A stretch of DNA of 64,000 bases from Anaerolineales bacterium (lineage in GTDB: Bacteria; Chloroflexota; Anaerolineae; Anaerolineales; UBA11579), in the NCBI GenBank assembly GCA_025808555.1, contig CP075526.1, forward strand, positions 1,070,712-1,134,711, in the 5' to 3' direction. A model generated the notes under the pieces. It was not told where the DNA came from. It saw only the letters and a program-made list of their open reading frames with translations, and searched no databases. Positions 13,383 to 50,510 of the stretch are shown here, piece after piece. How positions within the stretch are numbered: the first letter of the stretch is position 1; each line of letters opens with the position of its first letter. The translations under genes were made by a program, and so were the position numbers.

Positions 13383-13566
13383 AAGGTTGCTTGACAGCAA
13401 GGCACCTGGGCGGGCTGTGCGAGGGCTATCAGGGCGCGTGGGAACGAGGGCTACGGGTTTGGCCATGCGGCCTGTTATGCCATGGGAAGCGACGAACGGG
13501 GCGGATTGGCGGGCGGTGTCAAGGGATGCGATTAGCCCCTTCCATCGGACTTTGAAATACAGTTTT

Positions 13567-14307
13567 TTAAATAACGCCAAGGAACTTAAGCAGTATCGAG
13601 GCAAGTATTGTGCCGAGCACTGTAACTACAAGATTTACTATTGGGTTATCTCTAAGTTCACCGCGCAAAGCCATGCGCAACATAACTCCGACTGACGAAT
13701 CCCGAAATCGAATATGCAAACCTTGTGGGCTCGAGAGATAACCGTAGAGTCCTGCCAAAAAGATAAATATTATGAATAGGTCTACGAAGAACAAGGCTGG
13801 GTTTTTAAACATCTGGACGAATAGCAATTTGCCATCACTGAACAAAGACATGACTTCAGCCATGAGTCCGAGAGCAAACACTAAGCCGGAAAATGCAGAG
13901 AAACTCCCCTTACTTCTTTCACTTAGATACTCGTAAAAGAAAGCCAATAAGGAAAAAGTCCTTCCGGGATCCGGTGACTGCACATATATCTCTGTTGGTT
14001 GGCTATGGCCACTTGGAAATGTGTCATCAACAAAGTATGTTTCTTTGGATATGTTTACAAATAGAACCTTTATAAGTTCTTTGCTTTTAGCATTAGTTGC
14101 TTCAAGAATTATTGACGGGTAGTTACGTTCCCTGTTAAAAAACGTTTCCAAAGAAATATAATCTTTTTCTTTAGCAGGTATTAAATTACGCGGAAGCCGA
14201 ATCCTTATAACCGAAAACCCTGCGTTTCTAAACATTGTTGCAAATTCATTTAAAAATGCTTTGTCCCAATATCTTGAACCCCCAATTGATTTGCGCTTAC
14301 TGAACAT
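13567..14307 (-). CDS. hypothetical membrane protein, A+T-rich, probably acquired
   Basis: The 246-residue product has a soluble N-terminal domain (about 1-125, mixed alpha/beta by appearance) and three hydrophobic segments near 135-155, 168-190 and 225-245, so its C-terminal half is membrane-embedded. I recognise no family. Sampled stretches of the gene are about one third G+C, against about 62% in neighbours, and codon choice differs (many AAA, TTT and ATA), which suggests horizontal transfer. It lies alone next to the hairpin cluster, divergent from padR. Its start ATG at 14307 is preceded by AGAGGGTGC, a fair ribosome site. A membrane effector or stress role would be a guess. Confidence 0.65.
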   Translation of the reverse strand: MFSKRKSIGGSRYWDKAFLNEFATMFRNAGFSVIRIRLPRNLIPAKEKDYISLETFFNRERNYPSIILEATNAKSKELIKVLFVNISKETYFVDDTFPSGHSQPTEIYVQSPDPGRTFSLLAFFYEYLSERSKGSFSAFSGLVFALGLMAEVMSLFSDGKLLFVQMFKNPALFFVDLFIIFIFLAGLYGYLSSPQGLHIRFRDSSVGVMLRMALRGELRDNPIVNLVVTVLGTILASILLKFLGVI

Positions 14308-14421
14308 TGCACCCTCTAGGAACTGTTTTTATGAATCCTAAATATACGCTATTAGGAATGTGCCGGGTAACTGAGTGACTTCAGCTACAGATAGCCGTTT
14401 TAGTGCCAGTAATACTTCCTA

Positions 14422-14451
14422 TTGACAATACTGTATTACACACAGTATAAT
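14422..14451 (+). promoter_or_regulatory. padR promoter with embedded PadR-type operator
   Basis: TTGACA (14422-14427) and TATAAT (14446-14451) are spaced 18 bases apart. A perfect dyad ATACTGT-N7-ACAGTAT (14428-14434, 14442-14448) fills the spacer and overlaps the -10. This is the expected layout for autorepression. Transcription should begin 7 bases after the -10, at the padR start codon. Confidence 0.8.
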
Positions 14452-14458
14452 TCCTCAC

Positions 14459-14815
14459 ATGGTAACCAAAGAGGAATACCCCTCCCTGCTGGAAACGCTC
14501 ATCGGCGAGCTGCGCCGGGGCGCCCTGGGCCTTGCCGTGCTCAGCCAGCTCGCCCAACCCCAATACGGCTACTCGCTCAAGCAGCAGCTCGCCGCCCAGG
14601 GCATGGATATCCCCGAGGGTACGCTCTACCCGCTGCTGCGCCGCCTGGAGGCCCAGGGCCTGTTGGAGAGCGAATGGCGGGTGGTGGATGAGGCGCGGCC
14701 GCGCCGCTACTACCGCATCAGCCCCCAGGGCAAGCAGGCGCTTGCCGACCTTACCCATGAATGGCAGGCAATGAGCGCCGCACTGGCCGGCCTGCTGAAC
14801 GGAGAATCGAAATGA
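14459..14815 (+). CDS. PadR-family transcriptional regulator
   Basis: This 118-residue winged-helix repressor has the family pattern ALGLAVLSQLAQPQYGYSLKQQL, then GTLYPLLRRLEAQGLL (recognition helix and wing) and RRYYRISPQGKQAL (wing). The C-terminal helix is short, as in subfamily-2 PadR proteins. The start ATG at 14459 has no ribosome site and coincides with the predicted transcription start, so the mRNA is probably leaderless. It overlaps the next gene by the four bases ATGA. The two downstream genes encode HAAS-type membrane proteins, the usual PadR partners, so it likely controls this operon in response to an unknown signal. Confidence 0.9.
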   Translation: MVTKEEYPSLLETLIGELRRGALGLAVLSQLAQPQYGYSLKQQLAAQGMDIPEGTLYPLLRRLEAQGLLESEWRVVDEARPRRYYRISPQGKQALADLTHEWQAMSAALAGLLNGESK

Positions 14816-44769: not shown

Positions 44770-45867
44770 TTATTTATCTTTGATTCCTTCACGCAGCAAT
44801 TGGCGCAGGTCGTCGATGGGGCGGCGGCGGCCGGTGTCTGGGTCGATGTAGTGCCAATGCTGCCAGCCGTTGGCGGGTGCGGCGAGGGCCTCTTTGGCGG
44901 CCTGGTGAATAGAGGCGCGGCGGCCGTTGTATCTGAGCGAGCCATCGGCGAGGATGCGGGCGCTCTCGCGGCCCTTTTCGCCGAGGTAGAGGCGCTGGCC
45001 GGCTTCGAGCAGGCCGGCTTCGAGCAGGTTGCCGAAGGGAATGCGCGGCTCGCGACGGGGCTCATGCGCCTCGAAGAGCTCGGCTTCGTAGGCGACGGGC
45101 TCGATCTGGCCGATGCGGCGGCGGGCTAGACGGACGTAGGCGGGGTCTTGCTCGATGCCGATCCAGTTGCGGTGCAGGCGCTTGGCAACGGCGCCGGTGG
45201 TGCCGGAACCGAAGAAGGGGTCAAGAACTACATCGCCGGGGTTGGTACTGGAGAGCAGGACGCGGTAGAGCAATGATTCCGGCTTTTGCGTTGGGTGGGC
45301 GCTCTCGCCATCGGCGCGCAGACGCTCGCCCCCGGAGGCGATGGGGAGCAGCCAATCGCTGCGCATCTGCTTGTCTTCGTTGAGCGACTTCATGGCGTGA
45401 TAGTTGAAAGTGTACGGCGCGCCCTGCTCTTTTTGGGCCCAGAGCAGGGTTTCGTGAGCGTTGGTGAAACGGGTGCCGCGGAAATTGGGCGTGGGGTTGG
45501 CTTTGACCCAGACGATGGAGTTGAGCAGCCAGTAGTCAAGATCTTGCAGGATGTTGCCGACGCGATGGATGTTGTGATAGCTGCCGATGACCCAGAGGGT
45601 GCCGCTGGGCTTGAGGACGCGGCGGCAGGCGGCGAGCCAGGCACGAGTGAAGTCATCATAGGCGGCGAAATCATCAAAACGGTCCCAGGCTTCCTGGACG
45701 CCGCGGACCTTGGTGTTGTTGGGGCGGCGCAGCTCGCCGCCGAGCTGGAGGTTGTAGGGGGGATCGGCAAAGACGAGGTCGATGGAGTTGGCGGGGAGTT
45801 TGGCCAGCTCGGCCAGGCAGTCGCCGTGGAGGACGGAGTTGAGGGGCAGGGATGTGGCGCGGGGCAT
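44770..45867 (-). CDS. CcrM-type adenine DNA methyltransferase (GANTC-like)
   Basis: The 365-residue beta-class N6-adenine methyltransferase has its catalytic motif before the SAM motif: VFADPPYNLQLGGELRRP (about residue 31) and DPFFGSGTTGAVAKRL (about 210). Along its length it follows the Caulobacter CcrM pattern: WDRFDDFAAYDDFTRAWL, WVIGSYHNIHRVG, NPTPNFRGTRFTNAHETLLWA, HPTQKPESLLYRV, then a C-terminal domain with EPRIPFGNLLEAGLL, DGSLRYNGRRASIH and NGWQHWHY. CcrM methylates GANTC, so that target is likely. No restriction enzyme gene is adjacent, so it is probably an orphan regulatory methylase. ATG 45867 fits the family N terminus. Confidence 0.9.
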   Translation of the reverse strand: MPRATSLPLNSVLHGDCLAELAKLPANSIDLVFADPPYNLQLGGELRRPNNTKVRGVQEAWDRFDDFAAYDDFTRAWLAACRRVLKPSGTLWVIGSYHNIHRVGNILQDLDYWLLNSIVWVKANPTPNFRGTRFTNAHETLLWAQKEQGAPYTFNYHAMKSLNEDKQMRSDWLLPIASGGERLRADGESAHPTQKPESLLYRVLLSSTNPGDVVLDPFFGSGTTGAVAKRLHRNWIGIEQDPAYVRLARRRIGQIEPVAYEAELFEAHEPRREPRIPFGNLLEAGLLEAGQRLYLGEKGRESARILADGSLRYNGRRASIHQAAKEALAAPANGWQHWHYIDPDTGRRRPIDDLRQLLREGIKDK

Positions 45868-46299
45868 GAGTGCGTGGTCTCCGGCGCTTATTATGGATAA
45901 GGGGCAGGAATTGTGCGTCGGAAGCGGTGCGGGAGTTTTTGCGCCGTACGCGAAGCGGAGATGCTGCGCTGAGGGGCAAATGTAGATCAGCGGGCAAGGG
46001 CGAAAGGCGGAACAATGAGGTATTTGCATTCGCGAATCTCTTGCAGGGGCTCTGCCCCTGCGACCCCGTTGGGGGAACCTACGCTGCGCTTTGAGTTGGT
46101 TCCCCCCGAGCCCCCTCCGCAGACGCTCGTGTGAGTTGTGCATTCTGTCGCGGTTCCTCTGCGACCCGCGCCGAGGAATTGGTCTAAGGAAAGTTTTTTG
46201 TGAGCTAGGATCACACAACTTGCAAAAAGATGTTGCTCGTTAAGTCGGTGAGGGTATAGGGTGCAACTGAAAAGATATCTGGACATGGTGAGAGTTGGC
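45868..46299. other. 432-bp gap between the methylase and the RecA-like ATPase genes
   Basis: I see no gene here. It contains two palindromes, GCAGGGGC-TCT-GCCCCTGC (46043-46061) and GGGGGAACC/GGTTCCCCC (46071-46079, 46098-46106), which together look like a dispersed structured repeat. A CATAAT box at 45890-45895 on the minus strand may drive the methylase. Confidence 0.5.
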
Positions 46300-47526
46300 T
46301 TAGGCATGGTTGACAGCCTCGTGGCCGAGCGGGGTGAGGGCGTAAAGGGCGGGCGTGCCGTGGCCGCCGGGATTGGTGCGAGTGATGTAGCCGGCTGAGG
46401 CAAGCTCGTACACAAGGGTGCGGGCGCGGGAAGCGCCGGGCTGGGAAATGAGTTGTGGAGTGGCGGCTTCGCCAAGTTCGGCGAGGGTGAGGAGGAGGCT
46501 GCGGGCGGAGCGGCTGAGCCTGGCCGGCGCGGTTTGGCGATCGGCGAGGGATAGAGTAAATGTGTCTGGCGAGAAGTGGGTCTGGGCGGTGAGGGAGAGC
46601 GGCTCGACATCGCGGGCTTTGATGGTGGAGAGTTGAATGCAAGAGTCTTGCGGCGGGGATTGGGCCAGGAGCATGTGATCTACGCCAGAGGAAAGGGCGG
46701 AGGAGCCGCGGAAGACGCCTTGCTTATTGGTGTGGTGAATGACCAGCACAGCGACATCCGCCTGAAGGCTGAGGCGGCGCAGGTTGGCAAGAACGGGCTG
46801 GACGGAGAGGACATTGTTCTCATCTGTGCCGGGCATGATGTTGTTGAGGCAATCGATGACGATGAGGCCGGCGTTGAGGGAGTGAGCGCGCTGGACGAGG
46901 GGGACGACGACGTTGTCTTCAGCAAAGTTGTGGAAGGCAGGCGGGATGAAATGGAGCGGGGCTGTGCGGGGCGCGTTGAAGCCGCGCATGACAAGGGCGA
47001 GGCGAGACCAGGTGCGCTGCAAGCCGCCCTCTTCATCGACAATTAAGACTGGAGCAGGTTGCGTGGAGCGGCCGAGCCAGGGCTGGCCAGTGGCGACGCT
47101 GACGGCGAGATGGAGGGCGAGCCAGGTCTTTTTGGCGCCGGGCGCGCCGACAAGCAGGTTGAGGCTAGGACGGGCGATGACGCCTTGGACAAGGGCTGGC
47201 TGTGCTGGAGGCGGAGTTTCAAGAGCTTCCCAGGCGGAATAGACGCGCAGCTGGCCGATGTAGTCGTAGGCGAGATCGTCGGCAGCCTGTTGGACCTCAA
47301 GCTCCATGTGGGCGGCGTCAGGCCGCTCGGCGATGGAATCAAGGAAGGCCCGCTGGCGCTGGGCGTAGGTGCTGGCGGTGAGGCTGCGAACGGCGTTGTA
47401 GGCGGCCTGCCATTCCGGCGGCAAGGCTTCAGGCAACTGGGCGGCGAGGCCGTGGTGGATGAGGCGGGCGAGGATGTGAGCAGGCTCTGGCGCGGTGCTG
47501 GAGCCGGAGTCGGTGACAGCGTGCAT
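46300..47526 (-). CDS. RecA-like AAA ATPase (RepA/AAA_25 type) with C-terminal winged helix
   Basis: The 408-residue product has a central RecA-fold ATPase: SLNLLVGAPGAKKTWLALHLAVSVA (about 120-145), APVLIVDEEGGLQRT, LIVIDCLNNIMPG (Walker B) and VLVIHHTNKQGVFRGSSALSSGVDHMLL. The P-loop reads GAPGAKKT, with Lys before the catalytic Lys, as in RepA/AAA_25 proteins of plasmids and phages. The last 70 residues (ARSLLLTLAELGEAATPQLI...TLVYELASAGYITR) look like a winged-helix DNA-binding domain. A replication or DNA-loading role is inferred. It lies between the methylase and the SIR2 gene, close to the oriC candidate. It could be a relic of a mobile element. Confidence 0.75.
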   Translation of the reverse strand: MHAVTDSGSSTAPEPAHILARLIHHGLAAQLPEALPPEWQAAYNAVRSLTASTYAQRQRAFLDSIAERPDAAHMELEVQQAADDLAYDYIGQLRVYSAWEALETPPPAQPALVQGVIARPSLNLLVGAPGAKKTWLALHLAVSVATGQPWLGRSTQPAPVLIVDEEGGLQRTWSRLALVMRGFNAPRTAPLHFIPPAFHNFAEDNVVVPLVQRAHSLNAGLIVIDCLNNIMPGTDENNVLSVQPVLANLRRLSLQADVAVLVIHHTNKQGVFRGSSALSSGVDHMLLAQSPPQDSCIQLSTIKARDVEPLSLTAQTHFSPDTFTLSLADRQTAPARLSRSARSLLLTLAELGEAATPQLISQPGASRARTLVYELASAGYITRTNPGGHGTPALYALTPLGHEAVNHA

Positions 47527-47694
47527 GGAACCCCCAAGGCTGGACTGCGAAATGTTGCAAGTGGGGGGAATGTAGCAGGGATTAGCGGGGGCGAGAGGGA
47601 TTGGGGCGCGGTGTCAAGGAGGAGGTTCAGCGAAAATAACGCTCAACCAGACTAGTCAATCGCCTTTAGGATGTTACTTTCTTGGGAGGTGTTT

Positions 47695-49089
47695 CTAGAT
47701 ATTTCCTTTATCATCCTTCATTTCCTTGCTAATAAAATCGCCATTCAAAAATTTAGGCAAGGTCTCAGCACAATCACCATAAACTGAAAGTACTCGTCTT
47801 TTATCAAAATTTTGGATTCTCAATTCAAACTGTTTGGTCACTTTCTCCACAACAGAAACATCTGGGTCAAAGATAATCATTCGAGATTTCTCGTTTGTTG
47901 ATAACCACTTGCTAAGCATTCTTGAAATATATAGGTCTGCATCAGAAAAGGAGAAGCCCACGACAGCCACAATGCTGGCTTCACTGAGGGCGTCCTCGGC
48001 TCGCTCTAAGAGTGAATTTAATGAAGGAAAAATGTCAAACTTCATTGCCAGTGGAGGCACGAGCAACCCTCTTCGTTGTCCTCCACATTCCTTGCAAACT
48101 GCTATCACTGGGTAGAACGCAATATCATTGAGATAATTTTGTACAGTCGTGTTGATATCAATTAAGTGAACCTTTTGACAAGTCTCACAGAAAAACCAAT
48201 TAAGACTCCCATGAAGCTTAATAAGACGCGTCCCTGATTTTGGTGCACCACCTTGGTCATTGGTAAAATCAAGTTGATAGTTTAAGTCGTGCCCATCTTT
48301 GAGTAGCGCTAAATCCATACAGCAGTCATAGTTAGTTGTAACAATCGAGGACTTGCTGTTCCCTTTGACGTAGTCAGCTATAGCTAAGTGACCAGCATTG
48401 GGTTTTGCTGGCAACATACGACTAGATAAAAGACCGAAAAGAACTTGAAGAGTATCTTGCAAGAAGAGTACTGAAGAAAAGTCAACCCTTGGTCTTCTAA
48501 AGACCCGTCGCTCTTCTTGTGCTTGAAGATTCCCAAACAGCAGAAAGTCAACCAAATTTAGCACGTTGGGGTTTTGACTGCAGTATTCAGCAAGTTGAGC
48601 TGAAGTCAGCAAGTCTTCGATATTCTCAATCTTCTTCTCAACACAAAAATCAGCGAGTCTATTGACATCTTCGCGGTCAAGTCTTCGGGCCCTAGCCAGC
48701 ATATCTGGAAGGAGCTCTTTAACAGTGGGGATACCCGATGGTTCCGGTTTGGAAGCTCCGGCGCCTAACAAAAAGACTATATTCTCGGTTTTGGGGTCAA
48801 CTAGCTGTACTTCTTCATCAACTCCCAAGAGGTGGGCTACCAGCCTTTTTACTTCTTCTAGTAATCTTGCATAACGATGGGCGGAAGGTCGACTTGATAA
48901 CTCTGAATAGATATCAAGCCAGTCTGGGTGTAAGCTCTCCTCCCCAGACAATATATCTTCGTCAGTTATTGCTTCTCGCAACAAACTGACTGCGTGTGAA
49001 GTTGCACCTTCTTCAAGAGCAGTGATCGCCTCACTGAGCATGCTTACTTGCTCAATTGACACTTGTTCTACCCCCAACTTTATTTTCAT
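47695..49089 (-). CDS. SIR2-domain protein, A+T-rich, candidate defence NADase
   Basis: The 464-residue product contains a SIR2 NAD-binding domain: IVFLLGAGASKPEPSGIPTV (about residue 105), IVTTNYDCCMDLAL (about 252), IKLHGSLNWF with the catalytic-type histidine (about 294), a zinc-ribbon-like CETC...CKEC and VVGFSFSDADLYISRML (about 385). The first 100 residues are helical and unrecognised. Sampled stretches are 30-42% G+C against about 62% nearby, pointing to recent transfer. SIR2 domains of this stand-alone kind often deplete NAD in antiphage defence; that role here is inferred, and no partner gene is obvious. AGAGGG precedes the ATG. Confidence 0.82.
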   Translation of the reverse strand: MKIKLGVEQVSIEQVSMLSEAITALEEGATSHAVSLLREAITDEDILSGEESLHPDWLDIYSELSSRPSAHRYARLLEEVKRLVAHLLGVDEEVQLVDPKTENIVFLLGAGASKPEPSGIPTVKELLPDMLARARRLDREDVNRLADFCVEKKIENIEDLLTSAQLAEYCSQNPNVLNLVDFLLFGNLQAQEERRVFRRPRVDFSSVLFLQDTLQVLFGLLSSRMLPAKPNAGHLAIADYVKGNSKSSIVTTNYDCCMDLALLKDGHDLNYQLDFTNDQGGAPKSGTRLIKLHGSLNWFFCETCQKVHLIDINTTVQNYLNDIAFYPVIAVCKECGGQRRGLLVPPLAMKFDIFPSLNSLLERAEDALSEASIVAVVGFSFSDADLYISRMLSKWLSTNEKSRMIIFDPDVSVVEKVTKQFELRIQNFDKRRVLSVYGDCAETLPKFLNGDFISKEMKDDKGNI

Positions 49090-49129
49090 GTTCCCTCTGT
49101 ATTAATCTCTTAGAATTTTACCAGTCACT

Positions 49130-50188
49130 CTACACATTAAACCTAACGTTGATGATGTCGCCGTCCGCCATCTTGTACTCCTTGCCCTCGAGGCGGAGGC
49201 GGCCTTTGTCGCGGGCCTGGGCCATGCCGCCGAGCTCGAGGAGTTCATCGCCGGCGACGATCTCGGCGCGGATGAAGCCGCGGGCGATATCGGAGTGGAT
49301 GGCGCCGGCGGCCTCCAGGGCGCTGGCGTGCTTGCGCAGCATCCAGGCGTGGGCCTCGGGCTCGCCGACGGTGTAGAAGGTCTGCGTGTCCATCAGGTCG
49401 TAGGCGGCGCGGATGATGCGCAGGGAGCCGGGCTCCTGCAAGCCATATTCTTGTAAGAATATGGCTTGCTCATCAGCGGGCAACTGGGCCAGCTCCATTT
49501 CAAGCTTGCCTTGCAGAGCCAACACGGGCAGGCTGGAGGTGAGCGCGGGGGCAGCCTGGCCCTCGCCGAGGTTGATGACGGCGAGGATGGGCTTAAGGGT
49601 CAGGAGGCCGATGCCGGCGCTGGCAGTGATCTCGTCGTCGGTGAGGCCGGCGGTGCGCAGCGGCTTGTTATCTGAGAGGGCCGCGTGCAGTTTTTCGAAG
49701 TGGGCGATCTGGCGATCGAGGGCGGCGATATCACGGCCGCCTTTGCCGCGCTCTTCTTTGAGCTTTTGCTGCTTGCGCTCGACAATGATGAGATCGTTGA
49801 GGAGCAGCTCGTCTTCGATGGAGCGCAGGTCACGGGCGGCGTCAACGGTGGTGGCGGGGTGGGCCACGCTATCGTCCTCGAAGGCGCGCAAAACGATGAG
49901 CAGCCCGTCCATGCCACTGAGGGCGTTGAGCAGCTGGCCGCTGAGGCCCTGGGACGCCTCGCCAGAGCCCATACCGGCCACGTCGGCGAAAGAGATCTGG
50001 GCGTGCACGATCTTCTTGGAGGCGAATAGGGCAGCGAGGCGCTTGAGGCGCTCGTCTGGCACGTCGACCACGGCGGTGGTGATCTCAATGCGGCCGGCGC
50101 TCATGGCGAGCGGGCGGTTGCTGTGGGTGAGGGCGTTGAATATGGTGGTCTTGCCGGATTGCGGCAGGCCGATGATGCCTAATTTCAT
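49130..50188 (-). CDS. ychF: YchF/OLA1 family nucleotide-binding protein
   Basis: The 352-residue product is a TRAFAC-class P-loop protein that prefers ATP and binds ribosomes. MKLGIIGLPQSGKTTIFNALT is the P-loop, DVAGMGSGEASQGLSGQLLNAL the G3/switch region, and AVINLGEG holds the altered G4 motif (NxxE instead of NKxD), which is the family hallmark. The C-terminal TGS domain is visible in TFYTVGEPEAHAW and RGFIRAEIV. ATG 50188 gives the classical N terminus, but GTG 50197 lies 5 bases after a TATAAG box (50203-50208) and could be the start of a leaderless mRNA. Confidence 0.9.
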   Translation of the reverse strand: MKLGIIGLPQSGKTTIFNALTHSNRPLAMSAGRIEITTAVVDVPDERLKRLAALFASKKIVHAQISFADVAGMGSGEASQGLSGQLLNALSGMDGLLIVLRAFEDDSVAHPATTVDAARDLRSIEDELLLNDLIIVERKQQKLKEERGKGGRDIAALDRQIAHFEKLHAALSDNKPLRTAGLTDDEITASAGIGLLTLKPILAVINLGEGQAAPALTSSLPVLALQGKLEMELAQLPADEQAIFLQEYGLQEPGSLRIIRAAYDLMDTQTFYTVGEPEAHAWMLRKHASALEAAGAIHSDIARGFIRAEIVAGDELLELGGMAQARDKGRLRLEGKEYKMADGDIINVRFNV

Positions 50189-50202
50189 ACGTTGCACTAG
50201 TC

Positions 50203-50424: not shown

Positions 50425-50506
50425 GCCGAAGTGGCGGAACTGGCAGACGCGCGCGACTCAAAATCGCGTTCCCTTGGGAGTGTGGGTTCGATTCCCACCT
50501 TCGGCA
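50425..50506 (+). tRNA. tRNA-Leu (anticodon CAA)
   Basis: The cloverleaf is complete: acceptor GCCGAAG/CTTCGGC, D arm with TGGCGGAACTGGCAGACG, anticodon stem CGCGA/TCGCG around loop CTCAAAA (anticodon CAA at 50459-50461, reading UUG), a long class II variable arm and T arm GTGGG-TTCGATT-CCCAC. The discriminator base is A; CC follows but not the full CCA, so the end is added after transcription. Confidence 0.97.
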
Positions 50507-50510
50507 CCTT

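Follow-up and report, generated by a model that had tools for sequence, protein, structure and literature searches.

A horizontally acquired SIR2_2 protein in an accessory slot of an Anaerolineales genome, probably a stand-alone phage-defence enzyme

A gene of an Anaerolineales bacterium, located in a 64,000-nucleotide stretch of DNA (the window), probably encodes a SIR2_2 protein that acts by itself, was acquired horizontally and belongs to a small and previously unnamed family. The gene occupies an accessory and often defence-like slot of the chromosome, and its product would, in the mechanism proposed here, deplete NAD+. The gene and the features that surround it are the following:

47695..49089, minus strand: SIR2_2-family gene, 464 amino acids, G+C 0.425, with an N-terminal helical domain (residues 1 to about 100) and a SIR2 catalytic domain (about 104-452)
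48784..49089, minus strand: N-terminal domain, residues 1-102, with helices at 12-27, 30-41, 44-47, 56-66 and 68-88 and a conserved LHPxW
48085..48189, minus strand: zinc-ribbon-like segment, C301xxC304 and C332xxC335, directly after the catalytic LHGS (292-295)
46300..47526, minus strand: AAA_25 RecA-like ATPase, 408 amino acids, G+C 0.65, 3' neighbour of the SIR2 gene at a distance of 168 bp
46172..49129, no strand assigned: insertion of about 3 kb specific to the window's species that carries SIR2 and AAA_25, flanked by sequence homologous to relatives at the nucleotide level
44770..46218, minus strand: CcrM-like adenine methylase with a RAMA domain, a genus-conserved gene that bounds the slot on the left
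49130..50197, minus strand: ychF GTPase gene, likewise genus-conserved, which bounds the slot on the right
50425..50508, plus strand: tRNA-Leu(CAA), which adjoins ychF in all relatives and lies outside the insertion

The reading frame of the SIR2 gene is intact, with an ATG start and no internal stop. Its four catalytic motifs were located by residue (GAGAS, 109-113; TTNYD, 251-255; LHGS, 292-295; GFSFSD, 378-383), the first three being invariant in all four members of the family and the last varying as GFSF[SA][DE]AD. A preliminary description of this DNA had reported that these motifs were intact and that the base composition of the gene was far below that of its neighbours, and both statements hold. 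The G+C content of the gene is 0.425, compared to 0.606 in the remainder of the window, and a 400-kb sample of this genome, which served as background for composition and for A+T-rich islands, has only 0.3% of its 1395-bp stretches as G+C-poor. The gene shares its strand with ychF and starts 40 bp past the stop of the latter, so that the two may be transcribed together; a promoter search for the SIR2 gene returned nothing convincing.

Nucleotide homology to relatives ends at about position 46171 and resumes at 49130, the ychF stop, and the gene order lipoprotein, M3 peptidase, CcrM-like methylase and ychF was kept in all nine genus relatives examined, with the five closest relatives continuing the order with mbl, a sulfite-oxidase-like gene, an esterase gene, gatC and gatA. 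Since the methylase and the tRNA-Leu(CAA) have the same location in each of the nine, they represent landmarks of the core genome, and their presence does not point to a mobile element. Consequently, two elements of context put forward in the preliminary description, an "orphan" methylase and a nearby tRNA gene, do not stand as supporting evidence. For the same reasons we rejected the tRNA as an integration site, given that it lies beyond ychF, and the methylase and SIR2 as a restriction system. No direct repeats were found around the insertion in this slot (slot C). The true start of the methylase lies probably at about 45858; most relatives lack a counterpart of the initial ~100 residues of the open reading frame as listed. 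A 32-bp near-perfect palindrome (CAAGCCATATTCTT..AAGAATATGGCTTG) was observed at 49438-49469 within the ychF coding sequence, and some relatives (L036, L037) also have palindromes inside ychF.

Among the 11 genomes of the genus the SIR2 gene occurs only in that of the window and is absent from the other 10, and of 400 genomes of the phylum only 2 contained a full-length family member. Searches recovered just three full-length relatives, in Omnitrophota (L003), in a deltaproteobacterial MAG (L004) and in a different family of the window's own phylum (G147), and these are 49-52% identical to the window protein irrespective of phylum. The G+C contents of gene and host in the four hosts (0.425/0.606, 0.390/0.606, 0.500/0.655 and 0.478/0.360) make the gene look foreign in every one of them. 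An identity of about 50% whatever the phylum, together with a composition unlike that of each host, points to horizontal spread, and the comparisons of presence and composition that the preliminary description had suggested thus turned out in its favour. The loci of the three relatives are surrounded mostly by ordinary chromosomal genes, and comparison of the neighbours of the four SIR2 loci uncovered no partner in common. No relative of the family was detected in phage records or in IMG/VR viral contigs, and plasmid matches were SIR2_2 proteins only 21-28% identical; a phage or plasmid origin of the gene was rejected on these grounds.

In most relatives the slot between the methylase and ychF holds other cargo, with G+C contents of 0.42-0.46. 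This cargo comprises an MrcB_N-HNH nuclease in G008, a D12 methylase with a DndB/DpdB-like protein and a protein of no assigned function in G003, and proteins without assigned function in G002, G006 and G007. In three species the slot is occupied by a lipoprotein-like gene, related among them (G+C 0.49-0.58), and in one species it is empty. Two further slots of the same kind, dnaC/phoU and clpC/duf346, carry OLD/AriA-like ATPase, GmrSD_N, AIPR, AbiJ_NTD4, DUF4062, HEPN/PADLOC-candidate and PIN proteins, and a fourth locus carries a type II restriction endonuclease with a methylase. Genes of the relatives were called by open reading frame, and counts of cargo refer to one genome per species. 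One of the sister slots, which holds AIPR, GmrSD, OLD-like, HEPN and PIN genes in relatives, is also found in the window:

13551..14475, no strand assigned: clpC/duf346 slot, whose A+T-rich gene (G+C 0.39) encodes a probable membrane protein of 246 residues

In the dnaC/phoU slot of two species (L078, 4188-4411; L151, 7102-7340) the 3' end of dnaC is directly duplicated over 85-96 bp next to the cargo, resembling a remnant of integration at the end of the gene.

With its fixed core borders and interchangeable defence cargo, the SIR2 slot has the defining properties of the core-genome defence hotspots known in Pseudomonas aeruginosa (PMC10250203). The slots of the genus differ from those hotspots in that each holds one to three small A+T-rich genes, often together with a G+C-rich AAA_25 gene, with no integrase seen. 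Since the slot holds different accessory genes in most related species, several of them anti-phage, the SIR2 protein is most likely a stand-alone phage defence. The preliminary description had proposed a possible stand-alone antiphage effector, a suggestion that is strengthened by the restriction and abortive-infection-related genes that relatives have in the slot and, for its stand-alone part, by the lack of a partner shared by the four loci. Note however that several cargo genes have no assigned function, so that location by itself is no proof of a defence role.

Profile searches place the window protein in SIR2_2 (PF13289; 37.4 bits against a cut-off of 24.5, with relatives at 34.7-39.2), while its score with the canonical SIR2 model (PF02146) falls under the cut-off (21.2 against 24). 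On the tree, the four family members form a clade of their own (100/100) and canonical sirtuins a separate one (100/99); because of long branches, the order in which the family, other SIR2_2 proteins and canonical sirtuins branch is without resolution. Acyl-lysine sirtuins are characterized by the motif GIPDFR, with its DFR stretch, and canonical sirtuins read TQNID. The window protein reads GIPTVK and TTNYD at these positions, and the absence of the DFR stretch favours NAD+ hydrolysis over deacylation. Overall, the family resembles canonical sirtuins (CobB, SIRT5) in having a zinc-type CxxC...CxxC after the catalytic HG, but departs from them in these motifs, in its additional N-terminal domain and in its separate clade. 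A search of four genus genomes, including that of the window, found no canonical sirtuin, indicating that the SIR2 gene does not duplicate a resident one.

The window protein has GAGxS, TTNxD and HG motifs in common with the SIR2_2 antiphage NADases ThsA, DSR2, Avs5, SIR2-HerA and bAgaS, but it differs from these in having its own N-terminal helical domain and not STAND, SLOG/macro, HerA or Argonaute partners. A Pfam scan of the protein and its direct neighbours (AAA_25, methylase, YchF) detected no HerA, Argonaute, ThsB/SLOG, long C-terminal sensor or STAND. The best PADLOC matches were Argonaute-associated and SIR2 defence models; since these and the NCBIfam defence SIR2 models match weakly, the protein is claimed by no existing defence model. 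The closest sequence of solved structure was the SIR2 of the SIR2-HerA system, a match that was not significant.

The whole-protein model was poor (pLDDT 54.6). Its best structural matches include the canonical sirtuins SIRT5 and Sir2Af (Z about 17) as well as SIR2/HerA, with pLDDT below 50 there; ThsA was also among the matches. Modelled alone, the N-terminal part is predicted to be helical with a mean pLDDT of 80.6, and its identity among relatives is 23-25% as opposed to about 50% for the entire protein. This domain of about 100 residues had been called unfamiliar from the sequence, and structure prediction and searches likewise gave no convincing known fold. Foldseek returned no match to it at E < 0.001, and VIA-align matches (Z 6-9) were dismissed as fold identity, being generic helical arrangements.

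According to a 2025 study, SIR2_2 proteins do not have the zinc-binding module (PMC12700824). In the window protein, however, C301, C304, C332 and C335 are invariant in all four family members and located at the position of the zinc module of canonical sirtuins, in a segment where the predicted fold has pLDDT below 50. Contrary to that statement, zinc-type cysteines after HGSxxW were also observed in other SIR2_2 proteins (L031, L032, L046, L047, L060), so the statement may need qualifying. These proteins, which come from plasmids of Vibrio and Rhizobium, from Omnitrophota and from further genomes of the window's phylum, share HGSxxWxxCxxC after the catalytic histidine with the SIR2 family but have a short N-terminus and are at most distant kin, the tree giving no resolved common clade.

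The neighbour of the SIR2 gene had been described as a RecA-like ATPase of a plasmid- or phage-related type; Pfam assigns it to AAA_25, and in PHROGs it is nearest to phage primase/helicase families. Judged by eye, its C-terminal end is winged-helix-like. Paralogues exist in most genus genomes. An A+T-rich island (at least 500 bp, within 1 kb) was present on the 5' side of 11 of the 11 copies examined (46300-47526 and L071-L080), which represent about four slots and are not all independent, and on the 3' side of none, although in L080 that side extends only 0.45 kb to the contig end; a random 1-kb interval meets such an island with a frequency of 0.034. With respect to the borders of the slot, the unit of cargo and AAA_25 can lie either way round (L076 versus L071; L079 versus L077), the cargo remaining 5' in each case. 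The same arrangement was seen in two of three copies in another genus of the same family (OLD-like and PIN protein cargo), but not in a copy from another family. Another AAA_25 copy of the window's genome has as neighbours a type II restriction enzyme with an endonuclease VII fold and a DNA methylase (L072, 4842-6286; G+C 0.41).

The tree of AAA_25 proteins does not track slots. The window's copy groups (100/100) with the slot-B copies of G003 and G009, which have differing cargo (PIN-type and OLD-like), whereas the remaining copies from the window's genome fall elsewhere. This grouping suggests a small cassette made of cargo and AAA_25, and no integrase was noticed alongside such units. We tentatively raise the possibility that a minimal mobile cassette carries the SIR2 gene as one of several cargoes. 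The sole constant part of the cassette would be AAA_25, and its interchangeable A+T-rich, largely defence-like cargo would always lie 5'. The unit would move among a few fixed slots while encoding no integrase, and the ATPase would act in movement or cargo control.

Three other explanations of the SIR2 gene must be weighed. The invariant cysteines, the match of NCBIfam CobB-type models to residues 287-381 and the scores of L003 and L004, which exceed both the SIR2_2 and the canonical SIR2 cut-offs, all suit a sirtuin-like protein-modifying enzyme (a deacylase or ADP-ribosyltransferase) with a retained zinc module, which would regulate a protein of the host or of a phage; a role in defence, if there is one, would then not operate through NAD+ depletion. 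We regard this as unlikely given the replacement of GIPDFR by GIPTVK and of TQNID by TTNYD, a tree that does not put the family inside canonical sirtuins, and a mobile and species-specific occurrence that suits defence more than housekeeping. Slightly less probable again is a two-gene defence system comparable to SIR2-HerA, with SIR2 as effector and the AAA_25 ATPase as sensor or regulator. The two genes do share a strand and a single insertion, 168 bp apart, and AAA_25 genes of the genus are always beside A+T-rich cargo, but AAA_25 adjoins many unrelated cargo genes, the G+C contents of the two are far apart (0.65 and 0.425), and AAA_25 is not next to SIR2 in the other three hosts. An obligate SIR2-AAA_25 pair is therefore not supported.

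That the gene is a selfish toxin-like or metabolic passenger of a small mobile cassette, with no role in defence, appears improbable. Its mobile behaviour would fit, as would the part of the slot cargo that has no assigned function; however, no antitoxin-like neighbour is common to the hosts, and the invariance of catalytic and structural residues across phyla implies selection, which counts against a passive passenger.

A stand-alone phage-defence enzyme is thus the most likely identity of the SIR2 protein. The SIR2_2 proteins ThsA, DSR2, Avs5 and bAgaS deplete NAD+ upon infection or invasion (PMC12700824, PMC12931631, PMC10620215), and it is by analogy with these that NAD+ depletion and protection are proposed. 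In this scheme the protein would stay inactive as long as the cell is healthy. Its N-terminal helical domain, far more diverged than the catalytic domain, would sense an infection cue or be released by it, and activation could possibly involve oligomerisation of the kind known from ThsA and Avs5. Hydrolysis of NAD+ by the SIR2 domain (GAGAS, N253, D255, H293) would follow, and growth of the cell would halt before phage maturation.

If its activity is that suggested by its analogues, the family would extend the repertoire of NADase defence by a compact SIR2 protein that stands alone and has an N-terminal domain particular to it. Its conserved zinc-type cysteines bear on the relation of antiphage SIR2_2 NADases to deacylating sirtuins. 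Furthermore, the few fixed slots of the genus, often flagged by AAA_25 and each holding one to three accessory genes, many of them defence-like, provide short lists for new defence genes. If it proves true, the cassette of cargo and AAA_25 would be an unusually small carrier of immunity genes.
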